The notes beneath the pieces were generated by a model, which did no database searches, had not been told where the DNA came from, and saw only the letters and a list, made by a program, of their open reading frames with translations. The translations under genes and the position numbers were made by a program. A DNA stretch of 33,072 nucleotides from Deltaproteobacteria bacterium (GTDB lineage Bacteria; Desulfobacterota; Binatia; UTPRO1), in assembly GCA_029262315.1 (NCBI GenBank), contig JAJCZP010000096.1, positions 1-33,072 on the forward strand, written 5' to 3'. Position 1 is the stretch's first letter, and every line of letters starts with the position of its first letter. Positions 1,259 through 26,663 of the stretch are shown here, piece by piece.

Positions 1259-1572
1259 GTACTGCTGTGCCCGGGGACGCGCGCGGCGAACGCGCCGTGC
1301 TCCGATGGGCCTCGGAGCGGGAAGTGAGTCTCCGCTTCCCCCCGTGTCGCCACGCGCACCAGGCGCAGGACCTCTGATACGGGGTCCGCGCGCATTGGTG
1401 CTGCGAGCATCGGTGGCGGCGCGACGGGCGGGCGCGCCGCCAGCATCAGAGCGTGCACCTTCGCGCAACCACTCTCGGGATCAACGGGACACTGGGCACC
1501 CTCGGTGACATACGCGAGCACCCCCACGTATGCGGCGGCCACCGCGAAACCGAACCATCGTCGAACGCGCAT
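1255..1572 (-). CDS. Small exported or membrane-anchored hypothetical protein
   Basis: This is a 105-residue protein beginning MRVRRWFGFAVAAAYVGVLA, a basic start followed by one hydrophobic stretch, as in a signal peptide or anchor. The rest has two cysteines (AQCPVDPESGCAKV) and Pro/Ala-rich sequence. The last ~25 residues are encoded antisense to a copy of the dispersed hairpin repeat at 1271-1341, so the C-terminus may have been recruited from that repeat. The gene follows argA by 31 bases and overlaps the next gene by ATGA. No family recognised. Its position in a tight operon supports it being real. Confidence 0.5.
   Translation of the reverse strand: MRVRRWFGFAVAAAYVGVLAYVTEGAQCPVDPESGCAKVHALMLAARPPVAPPPMLAAPMRADPVSEVLRLVRVATRGEAETHFPLRGPSEHGAFAARVPGHSST
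1271..1341 (+). repeat. Dispersed two-hairpin repeat, divergent copy (copy D)
   Basis: Bases 1291-1310 are identical to the 20-base core of the repeat found at 12652-12671 and, inverted, at 26619-26638. Upstream is the first hairpin (GGCG/CGCC). Downstream, the second hairpin has arms GGGAAG (1319-1324) and CTTCCC (1335-1340), which differ in sequence from the other copies but keep a stem. Unlike the other copies, this one lies inside a coding region, antisense to the small hypothetical protein. Confidence 0.6.
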
Positions 1573-9291: not shown

Positions 9292-10446
9292 TCAGCGGCC
9301 TGGTTCGGGGAAAGCGTCCATCAGGACGGCCTGGGCCGCCCCGACACCCGCCCCGAATGCCACAGGATGTCCGAATCTCGCCAGCCCCATCTCGAACGCG
9401 GCGAGCCCCTGGACGACATCGAACGCATCGGCATACCCGAGGTGGGCGAGTCGTACGATCTTCCCCTTGAGGGCATCCTGCCCACCGGCGAACGTCACGC
9501 CGATCTCGTCGCGCAGATACCCGACGATCTTCCCGGGCACGCCGTCCGGCAGGTACACACCCGTCGCGGCTGGGCTCGGATCGTCCGGCGCGACGAGCCG
9601 TAGCCCGAGCGCCGCGACCCCCGCCCGCATCGCGCGCGCCAGCAACTCGTGCCGCGCGTACACCGCCGGAAGCCTCTCGGTCAGCATCAGATCAAGCGCC
9701 GCCCGAAGACCAGCGATGAGCGAGATGGCCGGCGTCCATGCCGTCGTGTCCTTCGCTTGGCTGGCGCGCTCGCGCGGAAGATCGAAGTAGTAGCGGGGAG
9801 TCGTCGACCGCTCGGCCGCCTGCCACGCCTGCTCAGAGAGCGCAATGCACGCGAGCCCCGGGGGCAGCATCAGTGCTTTCTGCGAGCCCGTGATGAGTAC
9901 GTCGATTCCGAGGTCATCCATCGGGAGATCGAACACGCCCACCGCGGTGATCCCGTCGACGACCAACAACGCCTTGCGTCCGCGGGTGACCGCCGCAAGG
10001 CGGTCGACCGGATGACGCACGGTCGTCGAGGTCTCGCTCCCCTGCGCCAGGACGAGCCGCGTATCAGGGTACTCGTCGAGCGCACGCGCGACGGCATCGG
10101 GGTCGACGGCGCGGCCCCACTCGACCTTGATCTCGGTCACGGCCAGGCCGTACGCGGCAGCGATCTTGCCCCATCGCTCACCGAACTTCCCGCCGTTCAC
10201 GACCAACACACGATCGCCGGGCGACGTCAGGTTCGTTACCGCCGCCTCCATGGCTCCGGTCCCGGAAGACGCCAGGACGAGCACGTCCTGTTGAGTTTGG
10301 AAGAGCTGACGGAGGCCGTCGCGCACCTCGGCGACGACTGCCTCGAATTGGGGCGTCCGGTGATGAATCACCGGCTGCGCCATCGCGAGGAGAACCTCAG
10401 GCGGCACGGGCGTAGGCCCAGGCGCGAGCAGATATTTCTTGATCAT
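9292..10446 (-). CDS. Class V aminotransferase, serine/alanine-glyoxylate type
   Basis: This is a PLP enzyme of 384 residues. The start MIKKYLLAPGPTPVPPEVL is typical of the serine-pyruvate / alanine-glyoxylate aminotransferase family. The PLP-contacting SSGTGAMEAAV (60-70), VVDGITAVG (162-170) and the Schiff-base Lys190 in ITGSQKALMLP are all present. ATG 10446 is preceded by AAAGGAAA as ribosome-binding site. A long in-frame extension to 10614 runs through the riboswitch leader and is rejected. Being first in an operon with serA suggests it works as the phosphohydroxypyruvate (SerC-type) aminotransferase, as reported for some members of this family, rather than in photorespiration-type glyoxylate removal. 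That assignment is inference. Confidence 0.9.
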   Translation of the reverse strand: MIKKYLLAPGPTPVPPEVLLAMAQPVIHHRTPQFEAVVAEVRDGLRQLFQTQQDVLVLASSGTGAMEAAVTNLTSPGDRVLVVNGGKFGERWGKIAAAYGLAVTEIKVEWGRAVDPDAVARALDEYPDTRLVLAQGSETSTTVRHPVDRLAAVTRGRKALLVVDGITAVGVFDLPMDDLGIDVLITGSQKALMLPPGLACIALSEQAWQAAERSTTPRYYFDLPRERASQAKDTTAWTPAISLIAGLRAALDLMLTERLPAVYARHELLARAMRAGVAALGLRLVAPDDPSPAATGVYLPDGVPGKIVGYLRDEIGVTFAGGQDALKGKIVRLAHLGYADAFDVVQGLAAFEMGLARFGHPVAFGAGVGAAQAVLMDAFPEPGR

Positions 10447-10464: not shown

Positions 10465-10502
10465 AAAAAAAACCCGGACCCCAATTTGTTCAGAGGCCCA
10501 GG
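10465..10502 (-). terminator. Intrinsic terminator of riboswitch expression platform
   Basis: On the minus strand the arms CCTGGGCC (10502-10495) and GGTCCGGG (10480-10473) pair over 8 positions, two of them G-U, and are followed at once by eight T residues (10472-10465). The left arm includes part of the conserved 3' segment of the aptamer (CGCCTGGGC, 10505-10497). Aptamer and terminator therefore cannot form together, so ligand binding should switch the operon on. A competing CCGGG/CCCGG hairpin around the T run (10477-10457) is also possible. Confidence 0.8.
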
Positions 10503-10565
10503 CGTTCGGCTCCTGAAGATCGCACTCCCCCGTGGTGCTCCACGAAAACGCCAGTCGTGCGTCCA
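10496..10565 (-). promoter_or_regulatory. ZMP/ZTP riboswitch (pfl motif) aptamer
   Basis: On the minus strand the leader reads CGCACGACTGGCG (10562-10550), a hairpin CGTGG-agca-CCACG, then GGGGAGTGCG (ending at 10521), a linker, and GCCGAACGCCTGGGC (10511-10497). This matches the known layout of ZTP aptamers as I remember it: stem P1 (here CGCA/TGCG), the internal GACTGGCG strand, an apical hairpin, GGGGAG, and the 3' CGCCTGGGC segment whose CGCC can pair with GGCG as the pseudoknot. The ligand, 5-aminoimidazole-4-carboxamide ribotide or its triphosphate, accumulates when 10-formyltetrahydrofolate is short. It controls the aminotransferase-serA-purA operon, which fits a demand for serine-derived one-carbon units. 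Confidence 0.9.
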
Positions 10566-10585
10566 AGGACTTTCGGAAGGGCCGA

Positions 10586-10773: not shown

Positions 10774-12615
10774 ATGACACACCATGGCATGTTGATTCCG
10801 CTGGCGGCTCTCGCGCTTGGCGCGCTGATCGTCGTCACGGATGGGAACGCAGCCTCAGATGCCGCGCCGGGGGATGACGCGGCCGCGAGCGCAGTCGACG
10901 ACGAGCCGCGTGCCAGCGAGAGCGCTGCCGAAGGCGACACCGGCAACTACGTCGCGGACACCGCGGGCGGACAGGCCATCATCGACCACGAGGCCTCGCG
11001 GCAGCGTGAGCTGGAGTTCGAGGACACACCCAGCCTGCCAACGATCTTCGTACACCAGTGGACCTATCGCGACATCAAGGAGCCGACCCCCACAGTCTCG
11101 GTCGACGACCGCGCCCCCGCCGAGCTGACACTGATCGATGCCGTGCATCACGCACTGGCCAACAATCCAGGAATCTCGGCCCAGCGTCTGACACCCCTCA
11201 GCTTGCGACAGGACGTGCGAAACGCCGAGGCGGTCTTCGATCCGCTGCTGTCGATCAACGCCTCGCGGGATCGGCGCGAAGCACCAAACCCCTCCGCGCT
11301 CGTTGGCGTCGCGTCAACGAACGTCACCAACTTCGACGGCGAGCTGAAGATCGAGAAGACCTTGCGTACCGGCGCGGAGATCTCGGGCGCGCTCACGACA
11401 AACCGGCAATCGTTGAACGCCGCGTTTCAGACATTGCGTCCGCAATACACGACCGATCTGCAGTTCTCGCTGAATCAACCGCTGCTCCGAGATTTCGGAA
11501 AGAACTTCGCGTACCTCCTCGTCGACGTGAGCGAGACCAACTCCGAGGCCGCGCGTTACCGCTACCGTGCCGAGCTCGCCAATTTCGTGAAACGCGTGAT
11601 CGAGGCCTATTGGGTGGTCGTCTTCACACGCCAGAACCTTGTCGTGCAGGAACAGTCGCACGAGCTCGCCCTGCAAACGCTCCGCGAGAACCAGGAACGG
11701 GTGCGCGTCGGCCTGCTCGCTCCGGTGGTCGTCAAGGAGGCGCAGAGCCAGGCGGCGCTCCGTGAGGAACAGGTCATCCTCGCCCAGAACGACCTCGAAA
11801 ACTCGCTGGCTGCGCTCCGGCAGATCGTCTACATGCAAGTCCGCAACGACTTCCTCCCGCAGAAGGTCAACCCGGTAGAGGAGCCACACACGCGCCCGAT
11901 ATCGGTCGACACCGAGTTTGCGCTGACCCTGGCCTTCGACGAGCGCCCGGAAATCATGGCCCAGAGTCTGGAGCTCAAGAGCAGGCGCATCACCGAGCGG
12001 GTACGTGAGAACCAGGTATTGCCGCGCGTCGACCTCGTCGCCGGGGGAGGCCTGAACGCGTTGTCCGGTGATCCGGAACCGGTCGAGTTCCAGGGACAGA
12101 TCGTGACCTCCCCGTTCGGTGGCAGCTACGAGGAGGCCTTCGAACGCCTGGGCGACGGCGATTTCTACTCGTACTCGTTCGGCATAGAAATCGAGATCCC
12201 GTTCGGCAACGCCGCCGCCAAGAGCGAGTACGCGAAAGCCAAAATCGCGACGGCCCGTGCCCGCCTCGACCGCCGCCAACTGCTCTCGGACGTGACCGTC
12301 GAGGTCGAGCAGGCCGTGAACGACGTCGAAGCCAATATGAAGCGAATCCACTCCACACGGATCGCGCGTGAACTCGCCGAGGAGAATCTCCGTAACCAGC
12401 AGAAGCGTCTCGAGGTCGGCATGGCGACCACGAAGGACGTGCTCGATTTCCAGGACGATCTCACGCAAGCACGCGGCAACGAACTCAAGGCTGCCGTCGA
12501 TTACAACATCTCTCTCGCCGAGCTCTCCCGCGCCACGGGCATGATCCTCGAGCGCTTCTCGGTCGTCATCGAAGAACCGGGCGAGCGCTACGTGCCGTGG
12601 TGGGCGAAGTTTTAG
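10774..12615 (+). CDS. TolC-family outer-membrane efflux protein
   Basis: This is a 613-residue precursor with a signal peptide (MTHHGMLIPLAALALGALIV), an acidic Ala/Asp-rich linker (residues ~30-90), and a TolC/OEP body. The body shows two repeats of long coiled-coil helices: DAVHHALANNPGISAQRL ... DPLLSINASRDRR ... SLNQPLLRDFG ... VVKEAQSQAALREEQVILAQNDL, and again the C-terminal half with FSFG-type strands (YSFGIEIEIPFGNAAAKSEYAKAK) and NQQKRLEVGMATTKDVLDFQDDL. TolC proteins are trimeric outer-membrane channels for export pumps. No pump genes are adjacent. ATG 10774 fits the GAGGGAG ribosome-binding site (10760-10766) better than ATG 10768. The protein is longer than E. coli TolC because of its linker. 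Two hairpin repeats follow the stop. Confidence 0.9.
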   Translation: MTHHGMLIPLAALALGALIVVTDGNAASDAAPGDDAAASAVDDEPRASESAAEGDTGNYVADTAGGQAIIDHEASRQRELEFEDTPSLPTIFVHQWTYRDIKEPTPTVSVDDRAPAELTLIDAVHHALANNPGISAQRLTPLSLRQDVRNAEAVFDPLLSINASRDRREAPNPSALVGVASTNVTNFDGELKIEKTLRTGAEISGALTTNRQSLNAAFQTLRPQYTTDLQFSLNQPLLRDFGKNFAYLLVDVSETNSEAARYRYRAELANFVKRVIEAYWVVVFTRQNLVVQEQSHELALQTLRENQERVRVGLLAPVVVKEAQSQAALREEQVILAQNDLENSLAALRQIVYMQVRNDFLPQKVNPVEEPHTRPISVDTEFALTLAFDERPEIMAQSLELKSRRITERVRENQVLPRVDLVAGGGLNALSGDPEPVEFQGQIVTSPFGGSYEEAFERLGDGDFYSYSFGIEIEIPFGNAAAKSEYAKAKIATARARLDRRQLLSDVTVEVEQAVNDVEANMKRIHSTRIARELAEENLRNQQKRLEVGMATTKDVLDFQDDLTQARGNELKAAVDYNISLAELSRATGMILERFSVVIEEPGERYVPWWAKF

Positions 12616-12625
12616 TTTCAAGGCT

Positions 12626-12703
12626 GTTTCGCCCCCGTGCGCGCGGCGCTGCGCGCCGTGCTCCGATGGGCGTCGCCCCAGCAAAGCGCGGTTTGCTGGG
12701 GCT
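12626..12703 (+). repeat. Dispersed two-hairpin repeat, copy A
   Basis: It starts 11 bases after the tolC-like stop. The order is GTTTCGCCCCCGTGCGC, hairpin 1 (GGCGC 12645-12649, loop TGC, GCGCC 12653-12657), a conserved linker GTGCTCCGATGGGCGTCG, and hairpin 2 with 10-bp arms (CCCCAGCAAA 12676-12685, TTTGCTGGGG 12692-12701). No T run follows. It may act as a transcript 3' end, but the dispersed copies elsewhere argue for a REP-like element. Confidence 0.85.
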
Positions 12704-12712
12704 GTCGGTACA

Positions 12713-12792
12713 GTTTCGCCCCCGTGCGCGCGGGCGCTCCGCGCCCGTGCTCCGATGGGCGTCGCCCCAGCAAAGCGCGGTTTGCTGGGGCT
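12713..12792 (+). repeat. Dispersed two-hairpin repeat, copy B (tandem with A)
   Basis: It is nearly identical to copy A, 87 bases downstream. The only changes are in hairpin 1: an extra G in the left arm and an extra C in the right arm (GGGCGC 12732-12737 / GCGCCC 12741-12746), plus one loop change (TGC to TCC). The paired insertion keeps and lengthens the stem. Hairpin 2 is unchanged (12765-12774 / 12781-12790). Confidence 0.85.
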
Positions 12793-12884
12793 CCTGAAAA
12801 CGCGTTAGCCAGCGTCGCGCCGTGAGCGGGACGGGGGTACGATCGGCGATGATGCGTGGTCGTCAGTCGCGTAGCCTTGGATCT

Positions 12885-21186: not shown

Positions 21187-21197
21187 AGGAATCCTAT
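21185..21197. promoter_or_regulatory. 13-bp palindrome over start codon and ribosome-binding site
   Basis: ATAGGAATCCTAT is a perfect palindrome around a central base. On the minus strand it covers the AGGA ribosome-binding site and the first two bases of the ATG of the dksA-like gene. It could be a repressor site, or a chance by-product. Two near-identical GCTAAGG(A/G)G direct repeats lie just upstream (21211-21230) within the promoter. Confidence 0.35.
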
Positions 21198-21208
21198 CGG
21201 CCCGACGA

Positions 21209-21237
21209 ATGCTAAGGAGTGCTAAGGGGCGTGTCAA
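21209..21237 (-). promoter_or_regulatory. Sigma-70-type promoter of dksA-like operon
   Basis: Minus strand: TTGACA (21237-21232), 17-base spacer, TAGCAT (21214-21209). The predicted start near 21202 gives a very short leader of about 16 bases. This marks the 5' end of a new transcript in the gap after the 810-residue gene. Confidence 0.75.
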
Positions 21238-21276
21238 CTAGCTAATTCGACGTTCGTGCACAACTGCCCCACCTTA

Positions 21277-23709
21277 CTATTCTTTGGTGGCAGGGCCCAC
21301 GCGAACCAGCATCGCGCTCCCGACGGGAAGATTCGCAGCCTCCGCGAGGGCCCGCTGCAGGTCGAACAGGACGGGCGCGAGATGCGCCCCAGGCCCACCG
21401 AGCACGACCGAGGCCGCGTGCAGCCGGCCGAGCTGACGCCGCACCTGCATGCAGACGAGCGGCGTCGCCTCCCGCTCGCGATCGACCTCGGGATCCCTCG
21501 GGGACAGGAGCAGACTATTGCTCCGTTCGCGACCGCCGCCGGCACACTCGGTGCGCAAACGCGCGGCGACCGTGGCGACCTGATCGAGACTGCCCTGGTA
21601 TCGAAGCAGCCGATCAGCGAGTACCGGGTGAGCGGCGAGGATCTCGGCCGGAGACAGGCCGGGTGTCGGCGAATCCTCGGGAAGCTGGGGCACGTAGCAC
21701 GCCGCCACGGGACCACCTCCACTCCCGACCGCCGTCGCGGCGTCGGCGGCGTCCCCAATCGCGACCACCGGCAGCGGGAGACCGGACGGCGTCCCCCCGG
21801 AGGTCCCGCCCGCGGGCATACTCCGGATGGCCTTCCGCACGTTCTCGGCATCATCCCCTACCCGAAAATTGTTCGAAATCGACAGGAAGCAGACGTCGCC
21901 CAACGGCAATCCGGACGCCGCCCCCAGTGCAGCGCCCCACCCGCGGGCGACACCCAACGCGTTCTGCGGCAACCCGCCGTAGATGTCGTGACTCCGGGCC
22001 ACCTGGACCGTCTGCAACGCGCCTTCGTGGCAGAACCAGAGATCGAAGACGAGGCACGGTCGATGTTGCGCGGTGGCGGGCAGGTCGACCATCGGGACCC
22101 ATCGCTGGTTGATGCAGACCCGCGCCGGATCAGCGGCGAGCGCCGCGCCCGTGGCCGCGATCTGATCGAAAAAGAAGTGACAGGTGCGATCGCCATACGT
22201 GTAGTCCCCACGCGCACGCACGTCAGGCGCGGCGGCAAGAAGCTCCTGGGCGTAGTGATCGATGTGCTCCTCGCTGGCCGGATACGCGGCCGGTATCGCC
22301 ATCGCGTCCATGGCTGGAATGACGAAGAACGTGCACCAGCCTTCGGCGACGCGTCCCTTCTGCGTCGTGGTAAGGAGGCCGTGTTCCCGGAGATTCTCGA
22401 GCCCCGCGGTCCAGGTCTCCTCGAGTGAGCCGCCCGTGATGACGGTGCCCGCGCTCAGATGATGATCGACGTTCTTCCTGGCATCGGACGCGAGCGGCTG
22501 CCCTTCCTCGAACCGAAGCCCGGTCCGCAATGCGAACTCGGCGCGCCCGACCTGGACGGCGAGATACACCAGATGCTGATCGCGTTCCGGATAGTCGCCC
22601 AGGTAATCCCCCGCGCAGATGGCGGCCAGGAGATCGACAGCAGAGCGCGCTTGGAGCGTCTCGACGTGCGCCCCGTCGGCGTCGTGAAAGTCCGCGGCCA
22701 GTGTCCCCTCTTCGTACGACGGGCGCACTTTGAAGAACCCGTTCGGGTCCAACCGAATTGGAGAATTGCGTCCTTCCTCAGCGGGGTCGGGCAGTGGACC
22801 GTCCGGCACCGCGAGGCCAAGCCGCGCGGCGTCGTCCGGAAACTCGGTGGCGAGGACAGCGTACTCGGCGGTCATGGCCCACGCACTGAGGCGCTCCTCC
22901 CAGCCAGACACACGCTCGACGGCGCCGCGGCGAAGCGCCGTGTGCAGTGCGCGCTGCGCGCGTCCGTCCGGCTTGCCAACGCTGACGACCGGCGGGCCCC
23001 CACTCGCATCCTCGAGCACGAGCGCGGCGCCCGCCCGCCGCACCGTCAGCCGTGGGTTCTCCTGCAATTGCCCCGCCGGCACCTGGAGGATGCGCGGGCG
23101 CCAACGATAGACGTCGATGCTTTCGAGGAAACTCCACGACGGCGCAGCAACCGGCTGGACCCGCTCGGCCAAGGTCTCGGCGACCGCGCCGAACAGGCTC
23201 GGCGGATCGACGGGACCGCGACAGTCGACGATGTCGAGCGAACGCCCCCGGAACACCGCGATGTCATCGTGCGACAGCGTTGCCAGCGCGTCACGCGCGA
23301 AGACTTTCGTCACGCGAGGCTCTGCTCCGTCGCCAGGCAGAACATGCCGCCCCTCGTCGACCCCGTGATGATACAGGCAACGCACACCCTCGAGCGGATA
23401 GAACACCGGAGAATCCTCGCCGCAGAGCACGAGCACGGACACGTACGGATTGGTGATCAGATTCTGCACCACCCGCTCAACGCCATCGCGAAGCGTGGCG
23501 ATCGTCCCGATCACCGCGAGCGCCGCGCTCGGGATCGAGACCGGCAGGTGCTCGAGGATCGTCGCCAATGGCGGATCCGCCTTCCGCTGCCCGGCGATCT
23601 CCAGCTCGGTATGGCCGATCAGGATCGCGACGTTGGCGCGGGGGTCGAAAACGCGGACCTTCTCGTCATCGGGAAAGAAGGGCCACTCGCGCTCGAAATC
23701 AAACGACAC
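21277..23709 (-). CDS. MtrA-like / DUF4346-like / tandem thymidylate-synthase-like fusion protein
   Basis: An 810-residue protein in four parts. (1) Residues ~25-155 resemble subunit A of tetrahydromethanopterin S-methyltransferase (ALAVIGTIATLRDGVERVVQ, NPYVSVLVLCGED, CLYHHGVDEG). (2) Residues ~195-410 end in RDQHLVYLAVQVGRAEFAL, like DUF4346. (3) Residues ~430-630 look like thymidylate synthase: RPCLVFDLWF with the candidate nucleophile Cys552, ARSHD (Arg572, Asp575) and GLPQN (Asn583). The Cys-Arg and Arg-Asn spacings (20 and 11) equal those of E. coli ThyA (Cys146, Arg166, Asn177). The ThyA His207 and Tyr209 positions read Asn and Phe. (4) Residues ~690-810 repeat this fold without Cys, Arg or Asp. 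It is last in an operon with a dCMP deaminase fusion. I infer a dUMP-related methyl or hydroxymethyl transfer; whether it makes dTMP is unknown. Confidence 0.75.
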   Translation of the reverse strand: MSFDFEREWPFFPDDEKVRVFDPRANVAILIGHTELEIAGQRKADPPLATILEHLPVSIPSAALAVIGTIATLRDGVERVVQNLITNPYVSVLVLCGEDSPVFYPLEGVRCLYHHGVDEGRHVLPGDGAEPRVTKVFARDALATLSHDDIAVFRGRSLDIVDCRGPVDPPSLFGAVAETLAERVQPVAAPSWSFLESIDVYRWRPRILQVPAGQLQENPRLTVRRAGAALVLEDASGGPPVVSVGKPDGRAQRALHTALRRGAVERVSGWEERLSAWAMTAEYAVLATEFPDDAARLGLAVPDGPLPDPAEEGRNSPIRLDPNGFFKVRPSYEEGTLAADFHDADGAHVETLQARSAVDLLAAICAGDYLGDYPERDQHLVYLAVQVGRAEFALRTGLRFEEGQPLASDARKNVDHHLSAGTVITGGSLEETWTAGLENLREHGLLTTTQKGRVAEGWCTFFVIPAMDAMAIPAAYPASEEHIDHYAQELLAAAPDVRARGDYTYGDRTCHFFFDQIAATGAALAADPARVCINQRWVPMVDLPATAQHRPCLVFDLWFCHEGALQTVQVARSHDIYGGLPQNALGVARGWGAALGAASGLPLGDVCFLSISNNFRVGDDAENVRKAIRSMPAGGTSGGTPSGLPLPVVAIGDAADAATAVGSGGGPVAACYVPQLPEDSPTPGLSPAEILAAHPVLADRLLRYQGSLDQVATVAARLRTECAGGGRERSNSLLLSPRDPEVDREREATPLVCMQVRRQLGRLHAASVVLGGPGAHLAPVLFDLQRALAEAANLPVGSAMLVRVGPATKE

Positions 23710-26550: not shown

Positions 26551-26585
26551 GCGCCCTGCCAGCGCCGCGCGCACGGGGGCGAAAT
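26551..26585 (-). repeat. Partial copy of the two-hairpin repeat (copy C')
   Basis: On the minus strand, right after copy C, the repeat start recurs (TTTCGCCCCCGTGCGCGCGG) but the conserved linker is missing and hairpin 1 is disrupted. It leads into the yajQ start region. The C + C' tandem arrangement mirrors A + B. Confidence 0.6.
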
Positions 26586-26589
26586 CGAC

Positions 26590-26663
26590 GCAACCGCGGC
26601 TTTGCCGCGGTTCGCGACGCCCATCGGAGCACGGCGCGCGCGCGCCGCGCACACGGGGGCGAG
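26590..26663 (-). repeat. Dispersed two-hairpin repeat, copy C
   Basis: It begins 4 bases after the lolA stop, in the direction of transcription. It shares the 20-base core (26638-26619) with copies A and D and has hairpin 1 as GGCGC-GCGC-GCGCC. Hairpin 2 has quite different bases (AACCGCGGC/GCCGCGGTT, loop of 3, 26592-26612) from those in A and B, but again forms a perfect stem of 9 pairs. Confidence 0.85.

Follow-up and report, generated by a model that had tools for sequence, protein, structure and literature searches.

A short two-hairpin element, several copies of which lie in the 33,072-nucleotide stretch of DNA analysed here (the window), appears to be a REP-like dispersed palindromic element of one class of deltaproteobacteria-like genomes, and is most probably a non-autonomous unit of mobile, or formerly mobile, DNA. 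The window is contig C96 of G000, a 5.92-Mb genome in 298 contigs. The original prediction described a family of four copies and one partial copy, with a constant linker and an exchangeable hairpin. This description is correct and the family is real, but it is far larger, with 30 copies in the genome. Orthologous sites in related genomes hold full copies, decayed copies or none. The pattern is one of gain, persistence and decay, which is typical of REPs and would be surprising for an element that regulates a particular gene in an essential way.

The unit is about 75 bp long and is composed of hairpin 1, the linker GTC, hairpin 2, whose sequence is free, and the tail TCC. The arms of hairpin 1, GCCCCCGTGCG and CTCCGATGGGC, are conserved and its apical stem is variable, the consensus with all copies aligned being T-rich flank-GCCC C CG T G C [stem 1] T CCG AT GGGC-GTC-[stem 2]-TCC. 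GTC follows GGGC in 67 of about 105 copies, and TCG takes its place in family f11. Stem 2 is 6-14 bp long and opens with a G-C pair in 20/20 copies, and the base after the tail is C, T or A. The identity of the element is, consequently, the fixed hairpin-1 frame (GCCCCCGTGCG...CTCCGATGGGC) with the GTC linker and the TCC tail, while the apical stem of hairpin 1 and the entire hairpin 2 are preserved solely as paired structure. The same letters flank the hairpin-1 core (CGTG-C[stem]-TCCG) and hairpin 2 (CGTC-[stem]-TCC), which makes the unit look like two direct CGT-hairpin-TCC modules, with the outer helix clamping the first one. Some copies in G023 have an outer-helix 3' arm that can pair alternatively with hairpin 2 (GATGAGC/GCTCATC).

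All five places originally named in the window exist (Table 1). The 20-mer core CGCGCCGTGCTCCGATGGGC is exact at three of them, 1291-1310(+), 12652-12671(+) and 26638-26619(-), where 0.05 occurrences are expected from shuffles, and copy B carries a variant. The folds of copies A, B and C each comprise two distinct hairpins and are more stable than those of nearly all shuffles (12626-12706, 12713-12795 and 26668-26585(-)). Folding also confirmed that the insertion of a G and a C in hairpin 1 of copy B is paired, and that hairpin 2 differs among copies and always pairs with itself. Copies A and C do begin soon after a stop codon, copy A 11-14 nt downstream of it. The copy claimed at 1271-1341 is present, but as a degenerate relic, and it does not follow a stop codon; it sits some 12 nt upstream of a minus-strand gene's start codon.

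Table 1. Copies of the two-hairpin element and associated features in the window
Feature	Position	Strand	Support or remark
TAG stop codon, TolC-like outer membrane efflux gene (10789-12615)	12613..12615	+	Pfam PF02321
Copy A, whole element	12626..12703	+	R1 match 12629-12676; fold
Copy A hairpin 1: outer helix CGCCC/GGGCG, internal loops, 9-bp apical stem	12630..12672	+	fold; covariation
Copy A linker GTC	12672..12674	+	conserved in most copies
Copy A hairpin 2	12675..12702	+	fold; such hairpins covary
Copy B, direct tandem copy; extra G-C pair in hairpin 1; tail TCC	12713..12795	+	R1 match 12716-12765; fold
Copy B hairpin 2, identical to copy A hairpin 2	12764..12791	+	
Copy C, whole element	26592..26662	-	R1 match 26614-26662; fold
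Copy C hairpin 2, AACCGCGGC-AAA-GCCGCGGTT	26612-26592	-	
lolA stop codon TAG	26669-26667	-	copy C begins 4-5 nt downstream
Partial copy: 5' arm of hairpin 1 alone, truncated after it	26560..26585	-	
Degenerate relic: hairpin-1 core and apical stem kept, CCGTG arm lost	1267..1341	+	R1 26 bits, E=0.011
Empty counterpart: gap upstream of dksA-like gene	21187..21276	-	orthologous loci L113 (G001) and L144 (G003) occupied

A covariance model was built, and the covariation persists once all copies are aligned. In hairpin 1 (model-fitted alignment, 87 matches), 9 pairs have changed on both sides, in 82 cells, a result reached in 0/500 shuffles, and pairing collapses to 36-62% when the partners are slid by 1-3 columns. 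The outer helix changes in step, from GCCC/GGGC to GTCC/GGAC, GGCC/GGCC, GCGC/GCGC or GCTC/GAGC. In hairpin 2, compared over 20 copies of comparable length, 9/10 pairs have changed on both sides (49 cells, 0/500), and the joint changes far exceed those in slid versions; the percentage paired is partly given by construction, since these rows were picked for a readable stem. Stems differ between copies at many positions simultaneously. Template switching between the arms during DNA synthesis can maintain hairpins with many positions changing together (PMC8794818), and covariation alone is therefore no proof of an RNA function. The comparison of G-U with A-C pairs has opposite signs for hairpins 1 and 2, with no significant effect of gene orientation, and does not single out a folded strand.

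The core is not confined to the loci of the window: the 14-mer GTGCTCCGATGGGC occurs 26 times in G000, against 0 for a reversed-pattern control, and R1, the covariance model of hairpin 1, finds the 30 copies at E<=0.001. In a scan of 84,980 species, the exact pattern was matched in two MAGs, G001 and G003. Model R2, run across 148 genomes of the class, has matches in 14, distributed patchily, with 30 copies in G000, 17 in G031, 16 in G001, 15 in G102, 13 in G003, 8 in G101, 7 in G043 and 1 in each of the others; these numbers are lower bounds, since several copies lie at contig ends in carriers that are draft assemblies of apparently uncultured organisms. Among the single matches, that in G007 is probably false, since it has no hairpin 2. 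The carriers span several families of the class, many relatives of which are without any copy, and R2 had no match in 395 genomes sampled from the phylum besides the window's own genome, and none outside the class. About 20 altered copies in G023, many of them in arrays, were found by pattern search and missed by R2. A phage or plasmid origin was set aside, as viral contigs (searched with the exact pattern) and plasmids gave no match. A search of Rfam returned no family at gathering score, and the papers searched for the core held no relevant mention of it.

The history of individual copies was followed through flanking core genes in G001 and G003, which belong to one genus, and in G000 and G002, which belong to other genera; gene names were read by eye from the protein sequences. 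Ten orthologous sites in these four related genomes hold full copies, truncated relics or nothing. The leuB site is full in G001, a relic in G003 and empty elsewhere. The acpP site is full in G001 and truncated in G003, and the prfA site is full in G001 with relics in G003 and G000. The element is present in G001 only at the sucD, ilvC, ihfA, era and lon sites, in G003 only at the pheS site, and in both at the flgH/flgI site, where it now overlaps the FlgI N-terminus. These states indicate that copies are gained and decay, and are not conserved regulators; the notion of a conserved cis-regulator of particular genes was rejected, as the ten sites are mostly empty or decayed. There are also older sites, such as L155/L115/L151, which share one gene across three genomes. 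The orthologous flanks are highly diverged, and no insertion junction with a target duplication could be made out in them. At the flgI place in G001 (L233, G001:C81:83050-83800), hairpin 1 is degraded and hairpin 2 is intact, and the reading frame of FlgI runs through the copy, which supplies the signal-peptide region at the N-terminus. The same place in G003 (L252) is occupied by another, different remnant. The lon site of G003 (L225, G003:C463:800-1500) holds an unrelated perfect hairpin, GGACGACGCG-TTCCA-CGCGTCGTCC.

Tandem copies repeat the unit together with 4-8 nt of 5' flank in exact direct arrays, reaching six units of 53 bp in G023. Arrays in G023 (L267, L268) and G102 (L173, L174, L177) contain as many as six units of 52-68 bp each, and hairpin 2 is nearly identical within an array and differs between arrays. 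The original prediction of a REP/BIME-like mobile element is thus supported in its first half, as the element is dispersed, intergenic and patchy, with empty, relic and full orthologous sites, but not for its second, since BIMEs consist of alternating inverted REPs, whereas the arrays found here are direct tandems, none of them alternating.

The position of copies relative to genes was determined with approximate gene boundaries from a codon-usage caller trained on these loci. Of the 71 clusters that could be resolved, 36 run antisense to both neighbouring genes, 19 have convergent genes on either side, 12 run in sense with both, and only 4 are divergent; divergent gaps are thus avoided (67/71 clusters in non-divergent settings). 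Where the 5' gene is on the same strand, 26/31 copies begin <=15 nt from its stop codon, and the placement inside gaps departs strongly from uniformity (KS p=7e-10). Where the 5' neighbour is on the opposite strand, its start codon is <=15 nt away in 11/40 copies. The 5' flank is T-rich; the element has no GTAG tag, starting with GCCCC after the T-rich flank and ending in TCC. A preference for AT-rich, T-ending targets would explain the proximity to both stop and start codons, because such sequences lie at these codons in GC-rich genomes. A promoter-like TTGACA-N17 sequence belonging to the neighbouring minus-strand gene directly adjoins several copies. The element was rejected as a promoter component, and this adjacency is read as an insertion boundary, as the dksA-like gene of the window has a TTGACA-N17-like sequence without the element.

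The tight placement behind stop codons and the avoidance of divergent gaps would also be expected if the element were a structured RNA of 3'-UTRs or intercistronic regions, selected for its effects on mRNA protection, termination or ribosomes, with its spread being secondary. This idea, whose 3'-UTR form was part of the original prediction, is partly supported by the many sense copies directly after stop codons, the strong stem covariation and the sites common to different genera. It also agrees with the reduced translation reported for genes upstream of E. coli REPs that lie <=15 nt from the stop codon (cited in PMC12306157). About half of the clusters, however, are antisense to both neighbours, wobble pairs favour no transcript strand, orthologous copies are decayed or absent at the same core genes of sister species, and no Rfam family matches. 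The hairpins resemble intrinsic terminators in being GC-rich and right after stop codons, but neither strand has a U-tract or T-run after them, and a terminator was rejected for this reason. A structured RNA is, on balance, unlikely. More generally, strong covariation of stems at the ends of genes is no sure sign of a conserved regulatory RNA.

A family of binding sites in duplex DNA at gene ends, for instance for a nucleoid or gyrase-type protein, would account for the letters of the hairpin-1 arm and linker being fixed in both gene orientations, and gyrase is bound by some known REPs (PMC3733652). Such a site would not need the joint changes that keep both variable stems paired, and the low number of copies and their patchiness between sister species also speak against it; this explanation is very unlikely. 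A classical GTAG-REP/REPIN family moved by a genome-encoded RAYT (an IS200/IS605-type TnpA) is highly improbable and already largely refuted, even though the dispersal resembles that of REPs and G000 has 4 weak Y1_Tnp matches. The originally suggested search for a RAYT-type transposase revealed no link: the carriers G003 and G031, with 12-17 copies, are without a match to PF01797 (RAYT and IS200 TnpA), the PF01797-rich genomes G006 (17), G035 (13) and G055 (12) are without copies, and PF01797 is present in many non-carriers in counts that do not follow those of the element. Judged from coordinates, none of the copies lies beside a PF01797 gene, there is neither GTAG tag nor inverted pairing, and no transposase or integrase tied to the element was found with PF01797 as the profile. 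That the covariation merely results from hairpin arms serving as templates for each other during DNA synthesis (template switching), with no selection for the fold, is hardly credible: many stem positions do differ at once between copies, which is what template switching would yield (PMC8794818), but the process leaves the hairpin-1 frame, the GTC linker, the TCC tail and the dispersal unexplained, and it can act jointly with a mobile element.

The preferred reading, a mobile or formerly mobile DNA unit, would involve an enzyme acting in trans, other than a RAYT encoded beside the element, for which the hairpins, folded in DNA form, would serve as the recognition signal. It would copy the unit, or insert it, on the 3' side of short AT-rich sequences that end in T. 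Where the element is transcribed right after a stop codon, its hairpins may, if they act like E. coli REPs, incidentally protect the end of the mRNA or delay ribosomes that are terminating, and its position may likewise allow a lowered translation of the upstream gene. Several observations count against mobility. The search with PF01797 revealed no transposase or integrase tied to the element, and the diverged flanks showed no insertion junction with a target duplication. A few sites are common to different genera, as would be expected of old insertions but equally of a partial retention for function, and the orientation to genes in G031 is nearly uniform, which random insertion does not explain. 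In family f8 of that genome, every cluster except one is antisense to both genes and an extra hairpin precedes hairpin 1; in the copies L124, L127 and L131 this third hairpin lies immediately 5' of hairpin 1. A more far-reaching proposal would be a new kind of RAYT-free mobile DNA defined by its hairpins, whose enzyme reads the two-hairpin shape (fixed frame, free stems) and which has become a gene-boundary RNA/DNA element in part of the class; this appears unlikely.

Among known systems, the element is nearest in layout to the CGTC-tagged REPs, from which it nevertheless departs in several defining traits. Di Nocera et al. 2013 distinguished GTAG- and CGTC-tagged REPs (PMC3733652), the latter including neisserial dRS3 and rickettsial RPE-4/RPE-6 and having CGTC beside the stem, a CCA tail, no transposase and a location between co-directional or convergent genes. 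Similarly, hairpin 2 of the element has CGTC directly 5' of the stem and a short unpaired 3' tail, copies lie between co-directional or convergent genes with intragenic cases, no transposase is linked (PF01797 being the one tested here), and the family is old and patchy. The stem, however, starts with G-C and has 6-14 bp instead of starting with A-T and having 8-9 bp, the tail is TCC and not CCA, clusters are direct tandems where CGTC-REPs form mainly head-head dimers, there is an obligatory upstream second hairpin with an outer helix, and family f11 has TCG in place of CGTC. Owing to the differences in stem start, tail, pairing mode and upstream hairpin, the element is not filed as a CGTC-REP, and the classical alpha-proteobacterial consensus is absent from these genomes. 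With the GTAG-REPs, REPINs and BIMEs of E. coli and Pseudomonas it shares short dispersed extragenic hairpins with internal mismatches, many right after stop codons, but it has only tens of copies and lacks the tag, the RAYT link and the inverted pairing. In the broad sense of REP, it shares a short palindromic unit mostly between genes, in tens and not hundreds (30 in G000), and differences in position between related genomes. Like the MITEs (Correia/NEMIS, ERIC), it is short, non-coding, folded and dispersed beside genes; unlike them, it does not have two ends that form terminal inverted repeats, and no target duplication was seen. CGTC-group REPs pose a puzzle as to how they spread without a transposase. 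The element adds a clearly structured and compact case, restricted to one class, whose sites at orthologous core genes are variously occupied, reduced to relics or empty; candidates for the mobilising enzyme and the rules of insertion can thus be sought by comparing carriers with non-carriers within one class.

The window also contains a ZMP/ZTP riboswitch (Rfam RF01750, 57.6 bits) at 10489-10568(-), just upstream of a class-V aminotransferase gene (9292-10446) that is followed by same-strand genes resembling serA and purA. An 810-aa protein encoded at 21277-23709(-) combines stretches resembling MtrA (tetrahydromethanopterin methyltransferase subunit A) and a methanogen-type thymidylate synthase.
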